Shown one piece after another: positions 11,419 through 40,900 of a stretch of 42,191 nt of DNA. This DNA comes from Oscillospiraceae bacterium (lineage in GTDB: Bacteria > Bacillota > Clostridia > Oscillospirales > Oscillospiraceae): contig JAFYLI010000032.1 of NCBI GenBank assembly GCA_017537165.1, forward strand, positions 1 to 42,191, in the 5' to 3' direction. A program made the translations under genes and the position numbers. Under the pieces are notes generated by a model. That model had not been told where the DNA came from and ran no database searches. It saw nothing but the letters and a program-made list of their open reading frames with translations. How positions within the stretch are numbered: the first letter of the stretch is position 1; every line of letters starts with the position of its first letter.

Positions 11419-12522
11419 TTATACGTCCTCGTCGAGGCCAAAATACATCTGCTCCCATATTCCCTGCTCTTCAACACACTCCACTACGGTATCACCCTCG
11501 AAACGCTCAAGGGTAACATTGCCGAACAGTCTGAGATAACTGGGTGCCAATTTACACAGCTTTACCAGCCACAGCAAGGCGGGTCCAGCCGTAGCGCTGG
11601 CATTGTTCTTATTGGCTTGGGCAGCTGTGAAATACTCTATTATCTCCTTCGCCCTATATGTAATTCTGTAATGCTGCTTTCCGTCATCGTAATCGTAAAC
11701 AATGGTTTTGTGATAATGCTTTTGGGTAACGGGATCAAACTCCGCGTCGCTTTGGGCATAAGTTACACAGTTGGGGTCATCGCCTATTTTCTCTCCGTTT
11801 TTCAGCAACAGATATATTTTAAAATGCTCGTAACCGTATTCCTTGCGGGCGGTAATATAACTTGTAATAGCCTGATATTCACCTATTTTTGCCCTGCCCC
11901 AGTACCAGTGGTGCATAAGCCAGAACATACCCGTATTTCCCCAGTTATGGTCATGGTAACCGGTACCTTTCAGCGTCATCGTTTTGCCACCTGCGCTGAT
12001 CTCCGCTACTGCGCTTCCTTCGGGAACAGAGGGCAGCCATGCAAAATACTTACGCTCATTGAAAAAGATGTGTCCCGTTTCGGGGCGCCAGGAAGCCGCG
12101 TTGCCTACAAGCTCCACGTGAGCCTTAACTTTGTCATTTTCAAAATGAACGGTGTATTTATTCAGGTCGCCTTCTATCCAGCAGCGATCCGAAAGCACTA
12201 CCCGACAATGATCTCGGGCAAACTCACAGTTTTTGATATCAGCAGCAAAGGACTCGTAATACTCTTCCTCACCGCAGGTAAGTGAAAACGTTGCACTGGG
12301 CTTATATCCCGGAGTTGCCGCAGTAACGGGCTGAGAGAAAAAGATGATAACAAGATTCCAGCCGTCCTCGAGTCTGAAATCGGAGTACCACCACTCATAT
12401 TCTCCGAATACGCCGTTAGTCCTCAAGCCGTCTTCCCATGGCAATATATGATCCGGAAGAATATTAAGCATTCCGAAATCTTCAGGTTTCGAAGCAAGTC
12501 TTGCAATCTTTTTAGCACACAT
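11419..12522 (-). CDS. AttH/CrtC-like (lipocalin-type hydratase/cyclase fold) protein
   Basis: 367 residues from the ATG at 12522, where AAAAGGAGA sits about 8 bases upstream; an upstream in-frame start would lie before that site. Two hallmark blocks of the AttH/CrtC family are visible: EYEWWYSDFRLEDGW (about 41-55), matching the paired-Trp opening strand, and GTGYHDHNWGN (about 186-196), the conserved His-Asp-His core. Relatives include carotenoid 1,2-hydratase, AttH and natural-product pericyclases, all acting on hydrophobic substrates. No carotenoid genes are present, so the substrate is unknown. No signal peptide is apparent. It diverges from the glycyl radical enzyme gene with 126 bases between them. 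Confidence 0.78.
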   Translation of the reverse strand: MCAKKIARLASKPEDFGMLNILPDHILPWEDGLRTNGVFGEYEWWYSDFRLEDGWNLVIIFFSQPVTAATPGYKPSATFSLTCGEEEYYESFAADIKNCEFARDHCRVVLSDRCWIEGDLNKYTVHFENDKVKAHVELVGNAASWRPETGHIFFNERKYFAWLPSVPEGSAVAEISAGGKTMTLKGTGYHDHNWGNTGMFWLMHHWYWGRAKIGEYQAITSYITARKEYGYEHFKIYLLLKNGEKIGDDPNCVTYAQSDAEFDPVTQKHYHKTIVYDYDDGKQHYRITYRAKEIIEYFTAAQANKNNASATAGPALLWLVKLCKLAPSYLRLFGNVTLERFEGDTVVECVEEQGIWEQMYFGLDEDV

Positions 12523-12574
12523 ATAGGGTCTCCTTTTCCGCACCCAATCGCGCGAAATGAATAATATTTTATCG

Positions 12575-12603
12575 TAGACAAACCGCGGTTACTTTTATAT
12601 AAT
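12575..12603 (+). promoter_or_regulatory. Promoter of the glycyl radical enzyme gene
   Basis: TAGACA (12575-12580), 17-base spacer, TATAAT (12598-12603), 45 bases before the start codon. Confidence 0.7.
12581..12590. promoter_or_regulatory. Palindrome in the promoter spacer, operator candidate
   Basis: AACCGCGGTT is a perfect 10-base palindrome placed directly between the -35 and -10 boxes of the glycyl radical enzyme promoter, in the divergent region shared with the AttH-like gene. A repressor bound here could block both genes; this is inferred from position only. Confidence 0.35.
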
Positions 12604-12648
12604 TATATCATAAGTTTTAAACGAATGTAAACAAGGAGGTATTCCGCC

Positions 12649-15099
12649 ATGTATGAATTCAGACCTGCAACCGAGCGTATTCTGCGAATGAAGGAAAAGG
12701 TTCGCGACCGTATAGTCGTTCTTGATTCCGAAAGAATGAATATTCTCACAGAGGCATACAGCCAGCTCACCGACGTTGTGCCTATAGTTCAGCGCTCCCT
12801 TGCCTGCAAATATCTTATTGAAAGAACAAGCATAAGAGTATTCGAAGACGAAATAATCGTCGGCGCAACCGGCCCCCACTTCTTCACCTCCCCTCAGTAT
12901 CCCGAATGGGGCAACATAAGTGACTGGGTCATCGGCGCTATTGACAGCGGCGAGTGGGAACTGCGCGACGGCATATACTACAGCCCTCCCACCGACGATT
13001 TGAAGCAGTGCATGAGCGAACAGGCATACAAGGACGTTAAGGAAAGAATGCCCTTCTGGACAAACCATAAGGTCGGCCGCGTTGCCGATGCATGGCAGCC
13101 TGCTCATCACGCAGAGCTGGAGCGTATCGCCGCATCCAGCTACACCAAGGGCGGCATGGGTCTTTGCACTCTCCCCGAGGGTCATCTCATAGCAGGCTAT
13201 GATAAGGTTATTTTCAAGGGTTACAAGGCCATCCGTGCTCAGGCAGAGCTGTGGATAGAATCTCACTACGGCAATCTCATGGGCGATGACGTAAACAAGT
13301 GGCTGTTCTACACCGCTGCCATCAACTATCTCGACGCCGCAAGCCTGCTCTGCAAGCGTTATTCTGCCGAATGCGCCCGTCAGGCAGCTGAATGCACCGT
13401 TCCCAAGCGCAAGGCCGAGCTGGAGAAAATGGCCGACGGTCTTGACTGGATAAGTGAAAATCCCGCCCGTACCTTCTGGGAGGCCTGCCAGGCAGTCATG
13501 ACGTATCAGTTGCTTATTCAGCTGGACAGCAAGATCCCCGCACCTGCGCTGGGTCGTTTCGACCAGTACACCTGGCCTCTGCTCAAGAAGGATCTTGAAG
13601 CAGGCACTATCACCCTCGATGAGGCTCAGGAGATAGTTGACGCATTCTTCCTCAAGGCCAACTGCTTCTATTCCGGCGGCCCTGCCAAGCTGGTCAGCAC
13701 CACCGGTATAGGCAACACCTATCAGCACACCACCATCGGCGGCGTTGATCCCAAGACCGGCGAAAACGCAGAGAACCCCGTAACCTACATGGTTCTTGAG
13801 TCTGTGGGCCGTCTGCAGCTCCACGATCCCACCATTTCCCTGCGAATCAACAAAAACACCTCCGACAAGCTTTGGGGTCTTGCCCTGCAGACCTCCCGCA
13901 TGGTCGGTGGTCTCCCCCTCTATCAGAACGACGAGGTCATAATTCCCTCTCTCATTAAGGAACTTGGCTTCGAACTCGAGGATGCAAGAAATTACGGCAT
14001 TATCGGCTGTCAGGAAATCGTCGGCAGCGGCTGCGACTATCCCGCTCCCAACGGCGTACATCCTCCCCACGCTTCCGTATTCTGGGGCACTATCTTCGAC
14101 ATGGCTATCAACAACGGCATAAACCCCGCCAACGGTGAGCAGGCCAGCGTCCACACCGGCTATCTCTACGAAATGAACTCTATTGAGGAAGTCCGCGACG
14201 CAGTGAAGACCATGGGCACCCATATTATGAAGATGTTTATCTCCACCAATAACTACTCCGAATGTCTCTCCTCTTACTACGCTCCCCAGACCGCGCTCTC
14301 CATCACCGTTACCGGCTGCATGGAATCCGGCCGCGATCTGGTTCAGGGCGGCGCCAAGTACAACTCCTACGGCGGCACAGCCACCGGTCTTGCAACTCTC
14401 GCCGACTCCCTTTCCACTATCAAGTACATGTGCTTTGACAAAAAGCTCTGCACCACCCGCCAGCTTTATGATGCGGTTATGGCAAACTGGGAGGGCCACG
14501 AGGAGCTGCGCCAGCGTATTCTTAACGAAGTTCCCCATTACGGCAACGGCGATCCTTATGCCGATATGGAGCTGAAGTGGTGCGTTGACCTCTACTATGA
14601 CCTCTGCAACCAGATGTATTCCGTCCGCTCCAAGAAGTACAAGGCCGGTCTTTACGGCGCATCCGACCATATTGCTCAGGGCTATACCACATGGGCTACC
14701 CCCGACGGCCGCAAGTACGGCGAACCCCTTGCCGACGCAATGAGCCCCGCTCAGGGCCGCGACGTTAACGGCCCCACCGCAGTATTCGAGTCTACGGGCG
14801 TATTTGACCACCATCACTACATGGGCGGCATCGCATTGAATATGCGCATGCATCCCAACGTTCTCGCTACCGACGCAGGTATTGAAAAGCTCCGCGACAT
14901 GACCAAGACCTACTTCGAAGAAGGCGGCCTTGAAGTTCAGTACAACGTCGTTGATACAGAAACTCTCCGCGCTGCTCAGCAGACTCCTGAGAATTACCGC
15001 GATTTGGTAGTTCGCATCGCAGGCTACTCGGCATACTTTGTAGAAATGGGTGCCGACCTGCAGAACGATATTATTTCCAGAAACGAAAACATGATCTAA
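12649..15099 (+). CDS. Glycyl radical enzyme (PFL/dehydratase/decarboxylase superfamily), substrate unknown
   Basis: 816 residues, full length for the superfamily. The active-site loop reads IIGCQEI, with the thiyl Cys454 and a Glu two residues later (Glu456), as in the dehydratase and decarboxylase branches. The glycyl radical site is VVRIAGYSAYF with Gly792. The GCQEI loop differs from the common GCVEP, so I cannot assign a substrate (glycerol, choline, hydroxyproline, isethionate or an arylacetate). The radical SAM activase needed to install the radical is not encoded next to it nor elsewhere in the window. AAGGAGG precedes the ATG by about 10 bases. It has its own promoter and terminator, so it is monocistronic. 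Codon use is highly biased, suggesting high expression. Confidence 0.95.
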   Translation: MYEFRPATERILRMKEKVRDRIVVLDSERMNILTEAYSQLTDVVPIVQRSLACKYLIERTSIRVFEDEIIVGATGPHFFTSPQYPEWGNISDWVIGAIDSGEWELRDGIYYSPPTDDLKQCMSEQAYKDVKERMPFWTNHKVGRVADAWQPAHHAELERIAASSYTKGGMGLCTLPEGHLIAGYDKVIFKGYKAIRAQAELWIESHYGNLMGDDVNKWLFYTAAINYLDAASLLCKRYSAECARQAAECTVPKRKAELEKMADGLDWISENPARTFWEACQAVMTYQLLIQLDSKIPAPALGRFDQYTWPLLKKDLEAGTITLDEAQEIVDAFFLKANCFYSGGPAKLVSTTGIGNTYQHTTIGGVDPKTGENAENPVTYMVLESVGRLQLHDPTISLRINKNTSDKLWGLALQTSRMVGGLPLYQNDEVIIPSLIKELGFELEDARNYGIIGCQEIVGSGCDYPAPNGVHPPHASVFWGTIFDMAINNGINPANGEQASVHTGYLYEMNSIEEVRDAVKTMGTHIMKMFISTNNYSECLSSYYAPQTALSITVTGCMESGRDLVQGGAKYNSYGGTATGLATLADSLSTIKYMCFDKKLCTTRQLYDAVMANWEGHEELRQRILNEVPHYGNGDPYADMELKWCVDLYYDLCNQMYSVRSKKYKAGLYGASDHIAQGYTTWATPDGRKYGEPLADAMSPAQGRDVNGPTAVFESTGVFDHHHYMGGIALNMRMHPNVLATDAGIEKLRDMTKTYFEEGGLEVQYNVVDTETLRAAQQTPENYRDLVVRIAGYSAYFVEMGADLQNDIISRNENMI

Positions 15100-15107
15100 C
15101 ACCATAA

Positions 15108-15248: not shown

Positions 15249-15482
15249 ATGACTAACTTTGCAAACATTTCCAACAACGAAGAAGCGCTGAACGCCATAA
15301 CCACCCTTGAGAAGGAACTTTCCGCTAAGCTGGGCAAGGACGTAGCTGTTGTTGCTTACAGCCCCGTAAAGTACGCTTCCCTTGATAACGATGAGGCTTC
15401 CCTCGCCAAGATCACCGAGCTTGAGCAGGAAATCTCTGCCAGAACCGGCAAGGACGTAGTTCTCGTAGCATTCACCATTTGA
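15249..15482 (+). CDS. Small internally duplicated protein, function unknown
   Basis: 77 residues from the ATG at 15249, with AAGGAGACC upstream; a longer in-frame start would run through the promoter. It is made of two tandem copies with a 38-residue period: copy 1 about residues 10-37 (ITTLEKELSAKLGKDVAVVA) and copy 2 about 48-75 (ITELEQEISARTGKDVVLVA). Each reads as an amphipathic helix ending in a Gly-Lys-Asp turn and a short hydrophobic strand. There is no signal peptide and no Cys. Codon use is strongly optimised and the gene has its own terminator, so it is probably well expressed. I do not recognise the family. Confidence 0.8.
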   Translation: MTNFANISNNEEALNAITTLEKELSAKLGKDVAVVAYSPVKYASLDNDEASLAKITELEQEISARTGKDVVLVAFTI

Positions 15483-33146: not shown

Positions 33147-33509
33147 ATGGAAATGCTTAAACTTTGTGAAAGCGATCACCGCTTTATGACAGTTATATGG
33201 GACAATGAGCCCCTTTCTTCGGGCGAACTGGTAAACATCTGTGCCCGCGAACTTGGCTGGAAGAAGTCCACCACTTACACCGTTCTTAAAAAGCTATGCG
33301 AAAAAGGCTTCACCAAGAACGAAGACACTGTAGTCACAACCCTCATCCCCCGCAGCGAAGTGCAGGCTTACGAAAGCGAACGTTTTATAGAGCGCAGCTT
33401 CGGAGGTTCCCTGCCCGGTTTCCTCACCGCTTTTCTGGGCGGCAAGACAATTTCCGCAAAGGAGGCCGCCGAACTCAAGCGGCTGATCGACGAACACAAG
33501 GAGGATTAA
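33147..33509 (+). CDS. BlaI/MecI-family transcriptional repressor
   Basis: 120 residues from the ATG at 33147 (TAAGGAGG upstream; a longer reading would start inside the promoter). Winged helix-turn-helix: DHRFMTVIWDNEPLSSGELV, then KKSTTYTVLKKLCEKGF (recognition helix, about 41-57). The C-terminal dimerisation part contains SFGGSLPGFLTAFLGGKTIS (about 80-99). In known systems the membrane M56 protease triggers cleavage of this repressor. The partner starts 2 bases after its stop. No beta-lactamase or PBP gene is adjacent. Confidence 0.94.
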   Translation: MEMLKLCESDHRFMTVIWDNEPLSSGELVNICARELGWKKSTTYTVLKKLCEKGFTKNEDTVVTTLIPRSEVQAYESERFIERSFGGSLPGFLTAFLGGKTISAKEAAELKRLIDEHKED

Positions 33510-33511
33510 TT

Positions 33512-36500
33512 ATGGAATCCGTATTTTCCTTGATTCTTGATATGAGCCTTACCGCCTCTTTCGTTATCTTCGCGATACTGCTCATACGTCAGCTTTTGAA
33601 AAAAGCACCCAAGAAATACTCTTACGCGCTTTGGCTTGTGGCTGCATTCCGCCTTATCTGCCCCGTGAGCATAGAATCTGCATTCAGCATATTCAATCTC
33701 AAATTCGGCAAAAGCGGAGCATCGCTCACTGATGTTCCCACCTACCTGCCTCCCACTAATATCGCTCCCGCGCAGCCCGCACCCAGCATTGCGCCATCCG
33801 GCTCTGCTGCTATCGTGCTTCCCAATGGCGCCACAAATATCGGCACGGCGCAGACCGTTCCCATAGTTCCTACGGAACCTGCAGCATCGGTAAACATGAT
33901 GGGTGTACTGGCAATTATATGGTGCCTCGGCATTGCCGCGCTGCTTATCTACAGCATATATACATATATAAAGCTGAAGCGCCGGCTTTCCACTGCCGTA
34001 CTTCTGCAGGATAACATACGGCAGGCAAGCGGCATCCGCTCCCCTTTCATTCTTGGCTTTATCCGCCCGCAGATATACGTTCCTTACCATCTCAGTGATG
34101 GTGAAATGGACTATGTACTGGCTCACGAACGTTTCCACCTTAAGCGCCGCGACCACATAATTAAACCTCTCGCTTTTCTTATCCTCGTTCTCCACTGGTT
34201 CAATCCCCTTGTATGGCTGGCTTTTTATCTGATGGTCAGGGATATGGAAATGAGCTGCGACGAAAAAGTTCTCTCCCGCGACGAAAGCATCCGCAAGGAT
34301 TACAGCAGTACGCTCCTTTCCTTCGCTGCAGGCCGCTCCTTCCCCGCCCCCAGTCCTCTTTCTTTTGGTGAGGGCAGCGTGAAGAGCCGCATCAAGAACA
34401 TTCTCAACTGGAAAAAGCCCGCGCTGTGGCTGACAGTTGCCGCCATCGTAATATGCGCGGCAGTTATAGCCGTATGCGGCACCAATGCCAGAATCAGCTT
34501 GCCCGCCGACAAAATAAGCGAAGTCTCCGCAAACGGTGAAACAATTCCCTCCGAAGCCGCCGAAGATCTGATAGATCTCATAAACAGCCACAGCAAAACC
34601 GCTTATCACAAGGCTCCCGCAGAAGTTGGCAATGCAGACAGCCGCGTCGCCATAACCTTCGAGGATGGCAGCAGCTATTATCTCCACCACTGGTATTGCA
34701 GCGGCTTCTCATTCAATCCCGCCCACTTCGGCGAGGACGATTACTACACCATCCTCAGCCGCCTTGACGAAAATGGCAACCCCGTAAAAAGTTGGAAGAT
34801 GGAATACAGCTTCGACAAAGTATTCCTCGATTGGCTTGAAAAGTATTCCGCAAACAATCTCCATCCCTTCGGCAGCGAGTTCACCCTTTCCGAGGCCATA
34901 TTCACAAGGGACAACGGCGCAAAGCTCTCCTTTGAAACAGCCGAAGGCATTCTACTCGACAGCAGCAGAACTCTCTACGCAGGCAGCGAGCCTCTCGGCA
35001 GCTTTGAGCAGATAACGCTGTCTGGAAGCAACTGGGATAACTATCTAACCGGTGCAAGAGGCACATGGCTGACATACAGTGCCAAAGAACTGCGCCGCCA
35101 TAATTCCCGCGCATGGCGCATAGTAAACAGCGACCGTTATTACTATCTGCTTCTGCAGGATGACGGCACGCTGTACCTTGCAGGCGGCTACTACGATGCC
35201 GAGGGCGAATATGATTCCGAATCCGATGACTCCAACATTTTCTGCATCTATGAGCTTGCGGGCGAAGGCAGCGCTATTCGCTGGCAGTATGTCCAATACG
35301 AGCAGCCTGACTACTTCCCTCTTGATTTCGATTTTGAGTACAGCAGCATTCGCTTCGTGGCAACCGAGGGTTCTATCCGCGCCATTGACGCAGCAGGCTA
35401 CCCGCTGCAGGGCGTGGATGTCGAGGTTTCTGCTCAGTGCAGCGAAATCGGCTGGGTACATCCCATTGATGCCAATATGAGTGCTTCCCTCAGGCAGGAG
35501 GGCAACAGAGAAAAGATCGCGCCCTTTGCAGAGGTATTCTTCACTGCCACCCTCTCCGACGGCGAAACTCTCAGCGGCACGCTTATCATCTCCCGCCCCG
35601 ACAAACGCGACCGCTATCTTTATGAAATAACCCTCGATTCCGACACTTTGGGCATAAAGCGCGCTCCCAAGGGCGGCGCAGTAATCTATGTTACCACCGA
35701 AAGCGTCACCGCTCCCGCCGCAGATATTTATGCCCCCATCTCCTGCCTTTACATGGCTCCCCACAGTTCCTATTACCCTTGGGGCGGCGACAGTGGCTGC
35801 CGATACATCATTGACAGCGACAGCATCATCGTGGAACGAATGGATGGCAGCAGCAGCGAAGTTATCTTTTTTGACAGTTGGAATTACAGCGTACTCGAAC
35901 CTTATTCCGAAGAATGGACATCTATGTTCGTTGTAAATGCCCCCACCTTTGAAAACATCAAAAAGCCTCTTTATCTGCATATCTCCAATGAATTTTTCCT
36001 CCTCAACCTTGACGGTCAGCTTTGCATCGGCGAAGTTCATGACGGTCTCGTGTGGGATATCTACGCCATCGTACCCGAGGCTCAGCTTGGCATCGCCGTA
36101 TGGGAATACAGACCCGAACTCAGTTCCCGTTCCCCCTGGTTCGAGTTTGAGTTCGATATGGAGTATGAAAGTCTGCAGATAAGCAGTTCCCGCGGCGATC
36201 TCTTCTCCGACGGCAGCAGATATGCCGACACTCAGTTGGGTCTGCCCTACGGAAGTACGGTACGTTGGTCACCCTCCGCACAATATGACCGACATTCCGG
36301 TACACAGCTGCTGTTTACTGTCAACTTCGTTGATGGCAGCATGATGCAGGGCACGATTTACATTAGCTCTGAGAACAACCTCTACACCGCAGTTCTGCGC
36401 GCCGACGGCCTGCATCTCTCCAATGATGAAGATTACGGACACGCCGTCATACGGCTTACAGACTCGTCTGCCGTTATCGGCGGCACAGACCACGCATCCC

Positions 36501-38494
36501 TCGTTGCCAACAAGCTGAGCGAAACCATCAATATGGGCGGTTCCTACTATCTCACCCCCCATATCGCAGACCACGGCAAGCAGGATACCCTGCTGATAGA
36601 CCGCAGAAGCGATATATCCGGCTTTATCCGCAACTGCCGTCTTACTCCCATCGAAGCGCCCTTCACCGAGCCCAGTGATTATTGGATAGAAATCAGCGGC
36701 ATTATATCCGACACCAAAATCACCGTATGGCATGGCACCCGGGACACTCTACAGCTTACCTCAACAGAAGGCACACAGTATTACCGCGTGGACAGCAGTG
36801 ATCTTGCCGCCGAACTAATGGAGTTTTACTTCAACAACGCCCCCTATGTGCCCGAATTCACCACCGACCTCAACGAGTTGCTGAACAAATGGCAGGCAGA
36901 AGGAGTGGCAGAGCTGAGTTCTGAAAAACTTCTGCTGTTGAACCGGAACTTCGTTGCCACAATAACAGGCGAGGGCAATCCTCTCAGTAATTTCTTCACA
37001 TGTTACTACGCTCGCACCGAAGAACTCAACCTTGCTGCATTCCTGCAATATAACTTCGTTTCGAGCGCAGCATATACCGAAGAGGATTTCTACGCGCTGA
37101 AGCAACAGTATCCCAACCACGGACAACTTGACGGTTCGGACACCTATGAGGATGCGGTAAAATTCCGCAATCCCATCCATAAGTTCCCGCGCGAAAAGGT
37201 AGACGAACAGCTTATGCGCTATATGGGTATTACCACCGCGGATATTACCGCCGAAATAGATTTGGAAAACTCCGGCTTGGTTTATCTCGCCGAAGCCGAC
37301 GCTTATTTCAACTTCACCAGTGACATGGGTGCCGGCATCTTCCGTGCCGACTCCGGCAAAATCGTGGGTGATACCGTATATCTCCGCAGCGGCTTTGCTA
37401 CCCTTACCCTACGAAAAAACGGAGATACATGGCTCATTTATTCCCACACCTATGACACAGAGTCCGCCACCAGAGCGTATATTTCAAACGGCATTCTTGA
37501 AATATTCGACGTGGACGGGCAGATGGATATCACCGAATATTCAGACAACGGAGCCAAGGGTGCAGTGCTCACCATCACCGACCGAGAAACTGCCGAGCGC
37601 TACAGCCGAATGCTGCAATCCTGTATATTTACCAAGGTAGACGCTCCCGCTGAACCCATAGATGTTCCCCGGCTTGAGTTCACCCCCACTCAGCCCACCA
37701 ACCGCCTTATCATTTGGGACAGTGAAACTCCCCTGCTGCGTTACAGTCCCCGAGGGCGGCATGAGTATTACACCTTCACCTCGGACGTTTGGGACAACCT
37801 CTACGATGAGCTTTACAAGAGCTTCGACGGCAGGCTGCAGCAGATGTACCTTGAGGAAAACAGCACATACACCACCGACCTCAACGATCTTCTAAACAAA
37901 TGGCAGGCGGAAGGCGTTACTACTCTCAGTCAGGAGCAGTGTACACAGCTGAGCAAAAACTTTATCCCCACAAGCTGGAACAAAAACGGCCCCGGCATAG
38001 CCTCCGTCAATCCCCTCAGCGGTTTCTTCTCCTATTATTACGAGCGCCCCGAGGACATTGACCTTAAAGAGTTTCTAAGATACAACTTCGACCTCGACAT
38101 AGGTTTCACCGAAGATGATTTCAACTTGCTTAGGCAGTACAAGGTGCAGATAGCCGATTTGTCTGCCGATGAGACCTATGAGGACGCAGTAAGAATGCAG
38201 ACTCCCATCCACAAATATCCCCGCAAAAAGGTTGATGCTCTGCTGACAAAGTACGCAGGCATCACCACCGCCGATCTAAGCAGTGAGCCGAACATGGTAT
38301 ATCTTGACGAATTCAATTCCTATTACAACTTCACCAGTGACTACGGCCCGATTCCATTCAATTGCTACGCAGGCAAAATAGACGGCGATATGGTATATTT
38401 GAGCGATGGCAGCGCAACGCTAACTCTCCGTAAGAACGTCGATGAATGGCTGATTTATTCTCATATTTTCTACGGTTCCGTTGAGTTGCACTGA
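33512..38494 (+). CDS. Giant M56 (BlaR1-like) membrane metallopeptidase with repeat-containing C-terminal region
   Basis: 1660 residues; BlaR1-like proteins are usually 300-700. AAGGAGG lies upstream of the ATG. N-terminal M56 unit: helices at about 5-25 and 33-50, a Pro-rich loop, a helix at about 129-152, and the zinc motif HERFH (His205, Glu206, His209) followed by LHWFNPLVW and DMEMSCDEKVL. A fourth membrane helix (about 305-325) leads into about 1330 presumably extracellular residues. These contain two repeat families: R1 about 604-729 and 877-989 (Phe-Asp-x-Glu-Tyr start), and R2 about 1117-1310 and 1454-1655 (start TTDLN-x-LLNKWQAEGV, end ATLTLRKN...WLIYSH). No penicillin-binding domain is visible. 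It probably senses an external signal and cleaves the adjacent BlaI-like repressor. Confidence 0.88.
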   Translation: MESVFSLILDMSLTASFVIFAILLIRQLLKKAPKKYSYALWLVAAFRLICPVSIESAFSIFNLKFGKSGASLTDVPTYLPPTNIAPAQPAPSIAPSGSAAIVLPNGATNIGTAQTVPIVPTEPAASVNMMGVLAIIWCLGIAALLIYSIYTYIKLKRRLSTAVLLQDNIRQASGIRSPFILGFIRPQIYVPYHLSDGEMDYVLAHERFHLKRRDHIIKPLAFLILVLHWFNPLVWLAFYLMVRDMEMSCDEKVLSRDESIRKDYSSTLLSFAAGRSFPAPSPLSFGEGSVKSRIKNILNWKKPALWLTVAAIVICAAVIAVCGTNARISLPADKISEVSANGETIPSEAAEDLIDLINSHSKTAYHKAPAEVGNADSRVAITFEDGSSYYLHHWYCSGFSFNPAHFGEDDYYTILSRLDENGNPVKSWKMEYSFDKVFLDWLEKYSANNLHPFGSEFTLSEAIFTRDNGAKLSFETAEGILLDSSRTLYAGSEPLGSFEQITLSGSNWDNYLTGARGTWLTYSAKELRRHNSRAWRIVNSDRYYYLLLQDDGTLYLAGGYYDAEGEYDSESDDSNIFCIYELAGEGSAIRWQYVQYEQPDYFPLDFDFEYSSIRFVATEGSIRAIDAAGYPLQGVDVEVSAQCSEIGWVHPIDANMSASLRQEGNREKIAPFAEVFFTATLSDGETLSGTLIISRPDKRDRYLYEITLDSDTLGIKRAPKGGAVIYVTTESVTAPAADIYAPISCLYMAPHSSYYPWGGDSGCRYIIDSDSIIVERMDGSSSEVIFFDSWNYSVLEPYSEEWTSMFVVNAPTFENIKKPLYLHISNEFFLLNLDGQLCIGEVHDGLVWDIYAIVPEAQLGIAVWEYRPELSSRSPWFEFEFDMEYESLQISSSRGDLFSDGSRYADTQLGLPYGSTVRWSPSAQYDRHSGTQLLFTVNFVDGSMMQGTIYISSENNLYTAVLRADGLHLSNDEDYGHAVIRLTDSSAVIGGTDHASLVANKLSETINMGGSYYLTPHIADHGKQDTLLIDRRSDISGFIRNCRLTPIEAPFTEPSDYWIEISGIISDTKITVWHGTRDTLQLTSTEGTQYYRVDSSDLAAELMEFYFNNAPYVPEFTTDLNELLNKWQAEGVAELSSEKLLLLNRNFVATITGEGNPLSNFFTCYYARTEELNLAAFLQYNFVSSAAYTEEDFYALKQQYPNHGQLDGSDTYEDAVKFRNPIHKFPREKVDEQLMRYMGITTADITAEIDLENSGLVYLAEADAYFNFTSDMGAGIFRADSGKIVGDTVYLRSGFATLTLRKNGDTWLIYSHTYDTESATRAYISNGILEIFDVDGQMDITEYSDNGAKGAVLTITDRETAERYSRMLQSCIFTKVDAPAEPIDVPRLEFTPTQPTNRLIIWDSETPLLRYSPRGRHEYYTFTSDVWDNLYDELYKSFDGRLQQMYLEENSTYTTDLNDLLNKWQAEGVTTLSQEQCTQLSKNFIPTSWNKNGPGIASVNPLSGFFSYYYERPEDIDLKEFLRYNFDLDIGFTEDDFNLLRQYKVQIADLSADETYEDAVRMQTPIHKYPRKKVDALLTKYAGITTADLSSEPNMVYLDEFNSYYNFTSDYGPIPFNCYAGKIDGDMVYLSDGSATLTLRKNVDEWLIYSHIFYGSVELH

Positions 38495-38866: not shown

Positions 38867-38908
38867 TGGCTATCATTAACTTAGCTAACAACAGAAAGGA
38901 AGATGAAC

Positions 38909-40900
38909 ATGGGCTCTCGTTACGAGCACGTATTTTCCCCTATCCGCATTCGCGGCGTTGACTTCAAAAACCGTATTGAGCTGGCACCCCCCTCTCTCAA
39001 TCTGGCCAGCCTTGACCACAAGGTTACTCACGAATTCGTTGACCTGAACCGCTCCATCGCTTACGGCGGCGCTGCTATCCTCTCCGTCGGCAACGTTATG
39101 GTCGACATCAACGAATGCTGCAACGAAGAACTGCAGCTGGACATGAGCACCGATGAGTGCATCCTGCCCCTGAGCTGGTTCTCCCAAATGTGCGAGGGCT
39201 TCGGCGCTCACGCTTCTCTCGAGATTAACCACGGTGGCAAGGACTCTCAGTTTGACCGCACCGGTCGCCCCGCTTACGCTCCCTCCGAGTATTATTCCAC
39301 TTGGGAACTGATGAGCGCCAAGGCCGCAGGCCGCGAGCCTCTCAAGACCATTGAGATGACCCGCGAGCACATCCACGAGCTGGTAGAAAAGTACGCCATG
39401 GCTGCTTACCGCGCAAAGCGCGCAGGTATGCGCATGTGCATGATCCACGGCGGACACGGCAACCTTATCAGCCAGTTCTCCAGCCCCCTCTACAACTTCC
39501 GTACCGACGAATACGGCGGAAGCCTCGAAAACCGCGCCCGCTTCACCATTGAGGTACTTGACCGCGTACGTGAGCTGTGCGGCGAGGACTTCGTTATCGA
39601 GTTCCGTATCTCCGCAGATGAGATCAAGCCCGGCGGCATGGGCTATGACGAGACCCTGAAGTACATAGCAATGATTCAGGATAAGATCGACATTCTCCAC
39701 GTTTCCGCAGGTCTCCACGGTGAATTCGAATACATGCGCAACTGGTGGCAGAACTACATGATGGACCGCGAGTACAACGTTCACTACGCAGCCTCCATCA
39801 AGAAAGAGTTCCCCAACCTGCTCATCAACACCGTCGGCTCCATTATGAGCATCGAGCGCGCCGAGTACATCATCGCCAACGGCATGGCAGACTTCGTTTC
39901 CATGTGCCGTCCTCTGCTGGCCGACCCCGAAATGCCCCGCAAGTACGCTGAGGGTCGCGAGGCTGAGCACCGTCCCTGCCTGCGCTGCCAGTTCTGCGGC
40001 GGTCTGACTCACAAGGTTATCGGCTGTGCAGTTAACCCCTTCCTTGGCAATGAGCGCGAGTTCCCCCTCGGCCGCGTACAGAAGGCCGACGTCAAGAAGC
40101 GCGTCGCCGTTATCGGCGGTGGCCCCGGCGGTATCACCGCTGCAAAGATCCTCTGCGACAGAGGTCATGACGTTACTCTCTACGAAAAGAGCGGTCAGCT
40201 TGGCGGTACCATGCGCTACGCTGCTCTGCCCTCCTTCAAGCAGGACGTTGCTGACTACGTTAAGTTCCTCGTTCATCAGGGCGAGACCTGCGGCGCAAAG
40301 ATCCTGCTGAACACCGAGGCTACCCGCGAGATGCTTGAAAAGGAAAACTATGACGGCATTATCGTCGCTATCGGCGGCGATCCCATCGTTCCCGAGCTGC
40401 CCGGCATCCACAAGGATCACGTTCACTGGGCTCCCGAAGTCGATGCAGGTGAGAAGCCCTGCGGCCAGAAGGTCGTAGTTGTCGGCGCAGGTCTTGTCGG
40501 TCTCGAAGCCGCCATCGACCTGAAGAAGGAAGGCAAGGACGTTATCGTTATCGAGCTGCAGAATGACTACCGCAACCTGCAGGCCTCCGCAAGAGCCGTT
40601 GCATCTGAGTTCATGACCCTCATCGACGAGCTGAAGCTTGATGTACGTCTTGGCCACAAGCTGCTCGAGGTTACCGACGATGCAGTTATCTGCCAGAACG
40701 TAAACACCGGTGAGACCCTCACCCTCCCCGCAGACACCGTTCTGCTGGCAATGGGTCTGCGTCCCAAGGTAGACGAGGCCAATGCTCTTCGCCGCGCCTG
40801 CCCCGAAACCAGTTCTTACCTCATCGGCGACTGCCTCTATGTAGGTCAGAACGTTGCCGCCGCTACTCAGGGTGCCCTGAAGGCCGCAGCTTATATGTAA
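38909..40900 (+). CDS. Old-Yellow-Enzyme/FadH-type NAD(P)H:flavin oxidoreductase (FMN, 4Fe-4S, FAD)
   Basis: 663 residues from the second of two close ATGs; AGAAAGGA is 8 bases from this one but only 2 from the first. The N-terminal FMN barrel (about 5-345) contains INHGGKDS and HGGHGNLISQFSSPLYNFRTDEYGGSLENR-type sequence. The iron-sulfur ligands are Cys357, 360, 363 and 373. The FAD domain starts VAVIGGGPGGI (about 400) and the NAD(P) domain has VVVVGAGLVGLEAA (about 522). This is the architecture of 2,4-dienoyl-CoA reductase, enoate reductase and the bile-acid enzymes BaiCD/BaiH, which reduce activated C=C bonds. The substrate cannot be set from sequence. Monocistronic, strongly codon-biased. 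Confidence 0.94.
   Translation: MGSRYEHVFSPIRIRGVDFKNRIELAPPSLNLASLDHKVTHEFVDLNRSIAYGGAAILSVGNVMVDINECCNEELQLDMSTDECILPLSWFSQMCEGFGAHASLEINHGGKDSQFDRTGRPAYAPSEYYSTWELMSAKAAGREPLKTIEMTREHIHELVEKYAMAAYRAKRAGMRMCMIHGGHGNLISQFSSPLYNFRTDEYGGSLENRARFTIEVLDRVRELCGEDFVIEFRISADEIKPGGMGYDETLKYIAMIQDKIDILHVSAGLHGEFEYMRNWWQNYMMDREYNVHYAASIKKEFPNLLINTVGSIMSIERAEYIIANGMADFVSMCRPLLADPEMPRKYAEGREAEHRPCLRCQFCGGLTHKVIGCAVNPFLGNEREFPLGRVQKADVKKRVAVIGGGPGGITAAKILCDRGHDVTLYEKSGQLGGTMRYAALPSFKQDVADYVKFLVHQGETCGAKILLNTEATREMLEKENYDGIIVAIGGDPIVPELPGIHKDHVHWAPEVDAGEKPCGQKVVVVGAGLVGLEAAIDLKKEGKDVIVIELQNDYRNLQASARAVASEFMTLIDELKLDVRLGHKLLEVTDDAVICQNVNTGETLTLPADTVLLAMGLRPKVDEANALRRACPETSSYLIGDCLYVGQNVAAATQGALKAAAYM

Follow-up and report, generated by a model that had tools for sequence, protein, structure and literature searches.

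The 816 amino acid protein (P0001) encoded at positions 12649..15099 on the forward strand of the window, by which we mean the whole 42,191-nucleotide stretch of Oscillospiraceae DNA analysed here, is a glycyl radical enzyme (GRE). The gene encodes an intact, oxygen-sensitive radical enzyme of a plant-fibre gut bacterium, and it belongs to a clade that is marked by a Gln residue following the catalytic Cys (GCQE). GRE-rich genomes related to its own hold many more GREs than GRE activases, and the host also carries a standalone activase that is conserved in its relatives. A passage of a review (PMC11574389) describes many abundant gut GREs that lack a known function, and therefore an uncharacterised GRE is not news in itself. 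What is less expected is how far the clade has expanded and how few activases accompany it. We give an even chance to the explanation as a whole, namely that this is a working eliminase-type GRE, activated in trans by a standalone activase whose best candidate is located on contig C139, and acting on a phenolic or methoxylated substrate.

The GRE gene and its catalytic residues

The ATG start codon is located at position 12649 and the stop codon ends at position 15099. Both domains of the superfamily score above their cut-offs (PF02901, 463.8 bits with 24.3 needed; PF01228, 109.1 bits with 22.2 needed), and the catalytic Cys and radical Gly are present. Codons C454-Q455-E456 (14008..14016, + strand) specify the thiyl Cys, the clade-marking Gln and the catalytic Glu, and are aligned to C433-V434-E435 of glycerol dehydratase (GDH). 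This triplet is invariant in all 77 full-length clade rows, which were picked for having the Cys and the Gln. The same 77 rows all retain H179 (13183..13185, +), the equivalent of GDH His164, and the radical glycine G792 (15022..15024, +), which resides in the sequence RIAGYSAY and is identified by the PF01228 match and by alignment. Thus, C454, E456, G792 and the GCQEI loop are all found where a preliminary description of this DNA had placed them.

Comparison with an 87% identical relative at locus L057 yields a dN/dS of 0.09 over 816 codons, which indicates purifying selection. Judging from its sequence, the gene very probably encodes a working GRE. An antisense open frame of 836 amino acids (12595-15105, - strand) spans the entire gene, and is best viewed as a by-product of codon use because none of the 817 GRE codons is TTA, CTA or TCA.

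An unnamed clade of GREs

There are 113 GREs in our tree, which was built by a quick search without bootstrap and has long reference branches and an unsure deep order, and the GCQE proteins form a single branch of 82 rows within it (SH-aLRT 100). For named-organism loci, the tree was restricted to GREs longer than 560 amino acids that carry an R[VI]AG[YF]S motif. The GCQE branch is nested in a branch of 101 rows (SH-aLRT 100), the remainder of which are GCVE GREs from similar genomes. GDH, CutC, HypD, HplG, YbiW and PflD are all located outside the GCQE branch. Gln follows the catalytic position in 81 of the 82 clade rows and in none of these six named GREs. The loop is therefore atypical, as first described, when set against the named enzymes, but it is the rule within its clade. 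Since the loop is fixed across the clade, a lone oddity or sequencing error is ruled out. The one exception, a GRE of the branch at L102:480-2978, reads GFQE, wherein the Gln is kept and the catalytic Cys is replaced by Phe; its radical glycine loop and 832 amino acid frame are intact despite this loss.

The window GRE also remains under the cut-off of every named NCBIfam equivalog. Its scores are 394.9 bits against a cut-off of 1050 for the choline TMA-lyase CutC (TIGR04394), 416.6 against 1100 for the trans-4-hydroxyproline dehydratase HypD (NF043068), 381.1 against 1100 for indoleacetate decarboxylase (NF033718), 297.7 against 1150 for 4-hydroxyphenylacetate decarboxylase (NF033715) and 99.9 against 994.2 for pyruvate formate-lyase (TIGR01255). 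Sulfopropanediol dehydratase is a further member of the superfamily whose equivalog cut-off is far above the score obtained. Seven other GREs of the same genome were scanned, and these likewise reach no named NCBIfam equivalog. The tree and the cut-offs together rule out membership in a named group. This includes the groups of CutC and HypD, which share the GRE eliminase fold with the window GRE and which the preliminary description had named as the ones that would speak against a new branch. The proposal of an uncharacterised branch is thus borne out, in that the protein clusters outside all of the references used.

The nearest relatives of the GCQE GREs are GCVEP GREs (mostly of the AGFS type) from the same genomes, which fall in the same 101-row branch. 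They differ by having Val in place of Gln, are about 40% identical and are also without a family name. Labels of clade members include Oscillospiraceae, Lachnospiraceae, Peptococcaceae, one Spirochaetes and Sporobacter termitidis, and many of the records name sheep, goat, horse or buffalo samples. No paper describing the GCQE clade by title or abstract was found in the open-access full-text literature, a scope in which subscription papers are mostly not included.

A standalone activase as candidate partner

The window corresponds to the entire contig C24 of a 2.04-Mb genome that is divided among 159 contigs and is 95.9% complete. Profile searches of this genome produced no TIGR02494 match and no PF04055 radical SAM match on C24. 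The earlier statement that the 12 kb upstream and the 27 kb downstream of the gene hold no activase is therefore right, yet because the window is the whole contig this means only that there is none on C24. There are 13 PF02901 matches in the genome, five of them at contig ends where some may be halves, which gives 11-13 GRE genes. The gene is thus not a single orphan: its genome encodes 11-13 GREs, and the members of its clade usually stand alone.

Five GRE activases are encoded elsewhere in the genome. Those on contigs C44, C152, C25 and C122 are each located beside a GRE, whereas the fifth, on contig C139, has no GRE nearby. The search for unpaired activases that the preliminary description had proposed has therefore returned a single candidate. 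Activases of the C139 type also lack an adjoining GRE in the relatives G072 and G298. The gene order around C139 is matched in G072, which belongs to the same genus, and includes genes resembling those of a phosphohexomutase, RlmH and MurA (as judged from their sequences). Similarly, the activase of G298, the genome that contains L057, adjoins the same phosphohexomutase-like gene, after which the contig ends. In these three related genomes the standalone activase is found at L145:1654-2613, L171:5889-6878 and L172:5151-6110, and its site has a housekeeping appearance.

In an activase tree, which omits the L161 and L166 activases as copies of others that it contains, the C139, G072 and G298 activases are sister (100/100) to those of L109 and L134. 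The latter lie directly upstream of GCQE GREs, and because L109 and L134 are near copies they amount to little more than one independent case. The C139 protein is the best candidate for an activator in trans. It is not the sole possible one, because activases of several lineages adjoin GCQE GREs, and further activases may be missing from a genome that is 95.9% complete. The suggestion that the window GRE is activated by an enzyme encoded elsewhere is strengthened by the five activases off the contig, one of them unpaired, and activation in trans is in our judgement likely.

The strongest competing explanation is that the true activase is missing from the assembly, or that the window GRE is activated only by a paired activase of the C25 type. 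The 159 contigs and 95.9% completeness leave room for a missing gene. In addition, a GCQE GRE and an activase of the C25 type are about 6.4 kb apart in the congener G072 (L158), and activases of the C25 lineage adjoin GCQE GREs in L090, L092, L094 and L165. However, the contig extends 12 kb and 27 kb beyond the gene, and the same standalone activase is present in G072 and G298. These findings cause us to consider this explanation unlikely, albeit the most serious of the alternatives.

GREs outnumber activases

An activase is found within three genes of a clade GRE in at least 11 of 74 clade loci, which is a lower bound because contig ends truncate many of the loci. The locus counts cover 74 of 79 loci, namely those with a called GCQE gene, and the gene calls for the neighbour counts were made by a purpose-written codon-usage script rather than by a standard gene finder. 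GREs outnumber activases in every one of the 27 family genomes with at least six GRE candidates (333 versus 133, or about 2.5:1), where the GRE numbers represent first-look candidates that were scored in part. A Spearman value over 29 genomes is disregarded here, because no single rule governed the choice of those genomes. The same excess is evident in all nine genomes behind the named loci, with 127 GRE matches and 44 activases when pieces at contig ends are counted. The most extreme examples are Eubacterium sp. RGIG2447 (G301; L090, L161-L164), with 28 GRE matches and 5 activases in a 2.6-Mb genome, and Lachnospiraceae RGIG5636 (G302; L094, L159-L160, L165-L166), with 25 GRE matches and 4 activases in 2.2 Mb. 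Many of the GREs in these two genomes are arranged in tandem arrays.

Some loci place several GREs in a unit with one activase. At L121 the order is URO-D, GCQE GRE, activase and GCVEP GRE, wherein only 5-41 bases separate the genes. L073 likewise combines one activase with a GCQE and a GCVEP GRE, and L165 combines one activase with three GREs, so that the two GRE types have activase units in common at all three loci. In Escherichia coli, the single activase PflA serves both PflB and TdcE. GREs exceed activases there as well, but the GCQE genomes reach 28 GRE matches with 5 activases.

Gene associations and the possible substrate

The surroundings of the window GRE offer no informative operon. 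The gene downstream (15249..15482, +) encodes a 77 amino acid protein that lacks Cys and is composed of two similar halves. It is 97% identical in L057 (dN/dS 0.024), where it stays beside the GRE while the other flanks differ, and no further copy was found in the loci examined beyond the window and L057. A shared operon was rejected, as this gene is the sole conserved companion found. The divergent neighbour (11419..12543, -; 374 amino acids) has weak lipocalin-like matches (AsqO_C / CrtC) below cut-off, and homologues of it are absent from the other loci of the clade. Elsewhere in the window there is a URO-D family methyltransferase-like protein (1272-2261, -) and a 1732 amino acid frame (33296-38494) with a BlaR1 M56 peptidase domain only near its start.

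Located 24 kb from the GRE is a gene for a flavin enoate-reductase-type protein of 665 amino acids (OYE/BaiCD-like; 38903..40900, +). By sequence comparison, the proteins closest to it are encoded beside GREs of the clade at other loci: it is 64% identical to the OYE of L061, two genes from a GRE, 54-55% identical to those of L068/L069, which are next to a GRE, and 51% identical to that of L101, while the other OYEs listed reach at most 36%.

Among the clade loci, 15 OYE-type flavoproteins occur within three genes of a GRE versus 4 farther away (p 0.002), and the corresponding numbers are 12 and 3 for activases (p 0.005) and 5 and 0 for TRAP transporters (p 0.016), all uncorrected over 16 tests. 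URO-D-like genes (14 near, 9 far; p 0.07), SDR genes (6 and 8) and ABC genes show no significant enrichment near clade GREs, and were rejected as specific partners on that basis. The neighbour signals are modest and non-independent, with several loci being near copies.

At L131, an SDR gene and a GCQE GRE are followed in a row by a methyltetrahydrofolate methyltransferase (over cut-off) and a corrinoid protein (just under cut-off), and then by a second GCQE GRE, an OYE and an iron alcohol dehydrogenase (named by eye). On contig C25 of the host genome, URO-D, methyltransferase and corrinoid protein genes adjoin the activase/GRE pair. Upstream of the GCQE GRE of L126 are an acylating aldehyde dehydrogenase (PduP/EutE type) and a butyrate kinase (BUK), both over cut-off, as well as a phosphotransbutyrylase-type protein (PTB) under cut-off. 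Parts of this set also accompany GCQE GREs in L103 and L165, which brings the total to only three or four loci. The host genome has 17 URO-D (PF01208) and 15 OYE matches, pieces included.

There are 13 GRE matches in Sporobacter termitidis, an organism that, according to a passage in PMC4585845, grows on methoxylated aromatics via O-demethylation and ring cleavage. Together with the neighbouring genes, this hints at plant phenolics and at a carbonyl product. The substrate of the window GRE can only be weakly inferred from such associations, and a phenolic compound is a tentative choice to which we assign somewhat less than an even chance.

Fold, pocket and type of reaction

The AlphaFold2 model, made from 59 of the available rows (alignment A1), has a pLDDT of 92.7 and a pTM of 0.92. 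Its top match among solved folds is the B12-independent glycerol dehydratase 1r8w (Z 46.3, rmsd 2.0, 784 residues, 32% identity), with propanediol dehydratase (5i2a, 9rco; Z 46.0) almost level, and the fold is shared over the full length. Matches to arylacetate decarboxylase (7e7l; Z 41.5) and to hydroxyphenylacetate decarboxylase (HPAD; Z 39.7-39.9) are lower. Identity to any solved GRE is at most 32%. E456 completes the C-x-E pattern of GRE eliminases. This pattern is also kept in GRE decarboxylases, and thus it is not decisive. An elimination akin to that of the diol dehydratases is nonetheless the more probable reaction.

One possibility is that the window GRE is an ordinary dehydratase of small polyols such as glycerol or 1,2-propanediol whose loop has drifted. 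Glycerol and propanediol dehydratases are the best matches in sequence and structure, with the Cys, the Glu, the His164 equivalent and the radical Gly in common, and the acylating aldehyde dehydrogenase, PTB and BUK genes near a few clade members would suit such a pathway. In contrast, His281, Ser282 and Asp447 of 1r8w, the polar residues that bind substrate in GDH, are replaced by P297, A298 and P473. Pro occupies position 297 in 53 of 77 rows and position 473 in 64 of 77. The window GRE further differs from GDH by the Gln after the Cys and by a longer segment following the loop. The low identity also makes this possibility improbable, as does the presence of at least 10 GREs in many relatives, for which small diols would hardly account.

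A slightly poorer candidate is a decarboxylase of the arylacetate type, with aromatic acids from plants as its substrates. Neighbours of aromatic type and the shared C-x-E pattern are consistent with this reaction, but the fold ranks lower and the scores for the HPAD and indoleacetate decarboxylase equivalogs are far under their cut-offs, and we hold it to be improbable as well. The gene is most unlikely to be a non-catalytic or decaying paralogue: it is solitary, without an operon partner of known function, and its relative at L102 lacks the catalytic Cys, but its own catalytic residues are all intact and its dN/dS is low.

The pocket positions equivalent to those of GDH are no more variable than the clade average. 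Thus, many different substrates are not favoured, and a diversified pocket was rejected as a sign of them.

A possible mechanism

In the eliminase-type mechanism that we prefer, a standalone radical SAM activase, for which the C139 protein is the candidate, would generate a radical on Gly792. The radical would move to Cys454, which would then abstract a hydrogen from the substrate at a carbinol carbon. Glu456 and His179 might shift protons while an adjacent leaving group is expelled, leaving an aldehyde or ketone. Q455 and the prolines at positions 297 and 473 may give the enzyme a pocket unlike that of glycerol or propanediol dehydratase. Such a pocket may suit a larger and less polar substrate, for which a phenolic or methoxylated compound from plants is the most likely choice. 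The clade has multiplied in fibre-gut and digester Clostridia, where its members would share a small number of activases.

A far more specific proposal, which we regard as a long shot when all of its parts are taken together, is that the GCQE clade comprises anaerobic lyases for the side chains of plant phenolics. In beta-aryl ethers of the lignin or lignan type, for example, an aryloxy group could be eliminated from the glycerol chain, and an aldehyde would result. This might then be oxidised via acyl-CoA and acyl phosphate, with flavin reductases acting on the enoates so formed, and the methoxyphenol released could be passed to the URO-D/corrinoid demethylases. On this view the paralogous GREs, which number up to 28 in one genome, would be an arsenal diversified by substrate, and a small set of activases would serve them in common.

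Biological implications

Some of the most demanding bond cleavages in anaerobes are catalysed by GREs, and known members underlie the formation of trimethylamine, skatole and sulfide in the gut. The present findings describe a whole unnamed branch of these enzymes, whose genes have neighbours of methoxyaromatic type; the genomes concerned measure about 2 Mb and often encode at least 10 GREs. The existence of a shared, standalone activase means that the question can be tested directly by heterologous expression. If the branch does act on plant phenolics, it would provide a handle on the anaerobic opening of lignin-like compounds.
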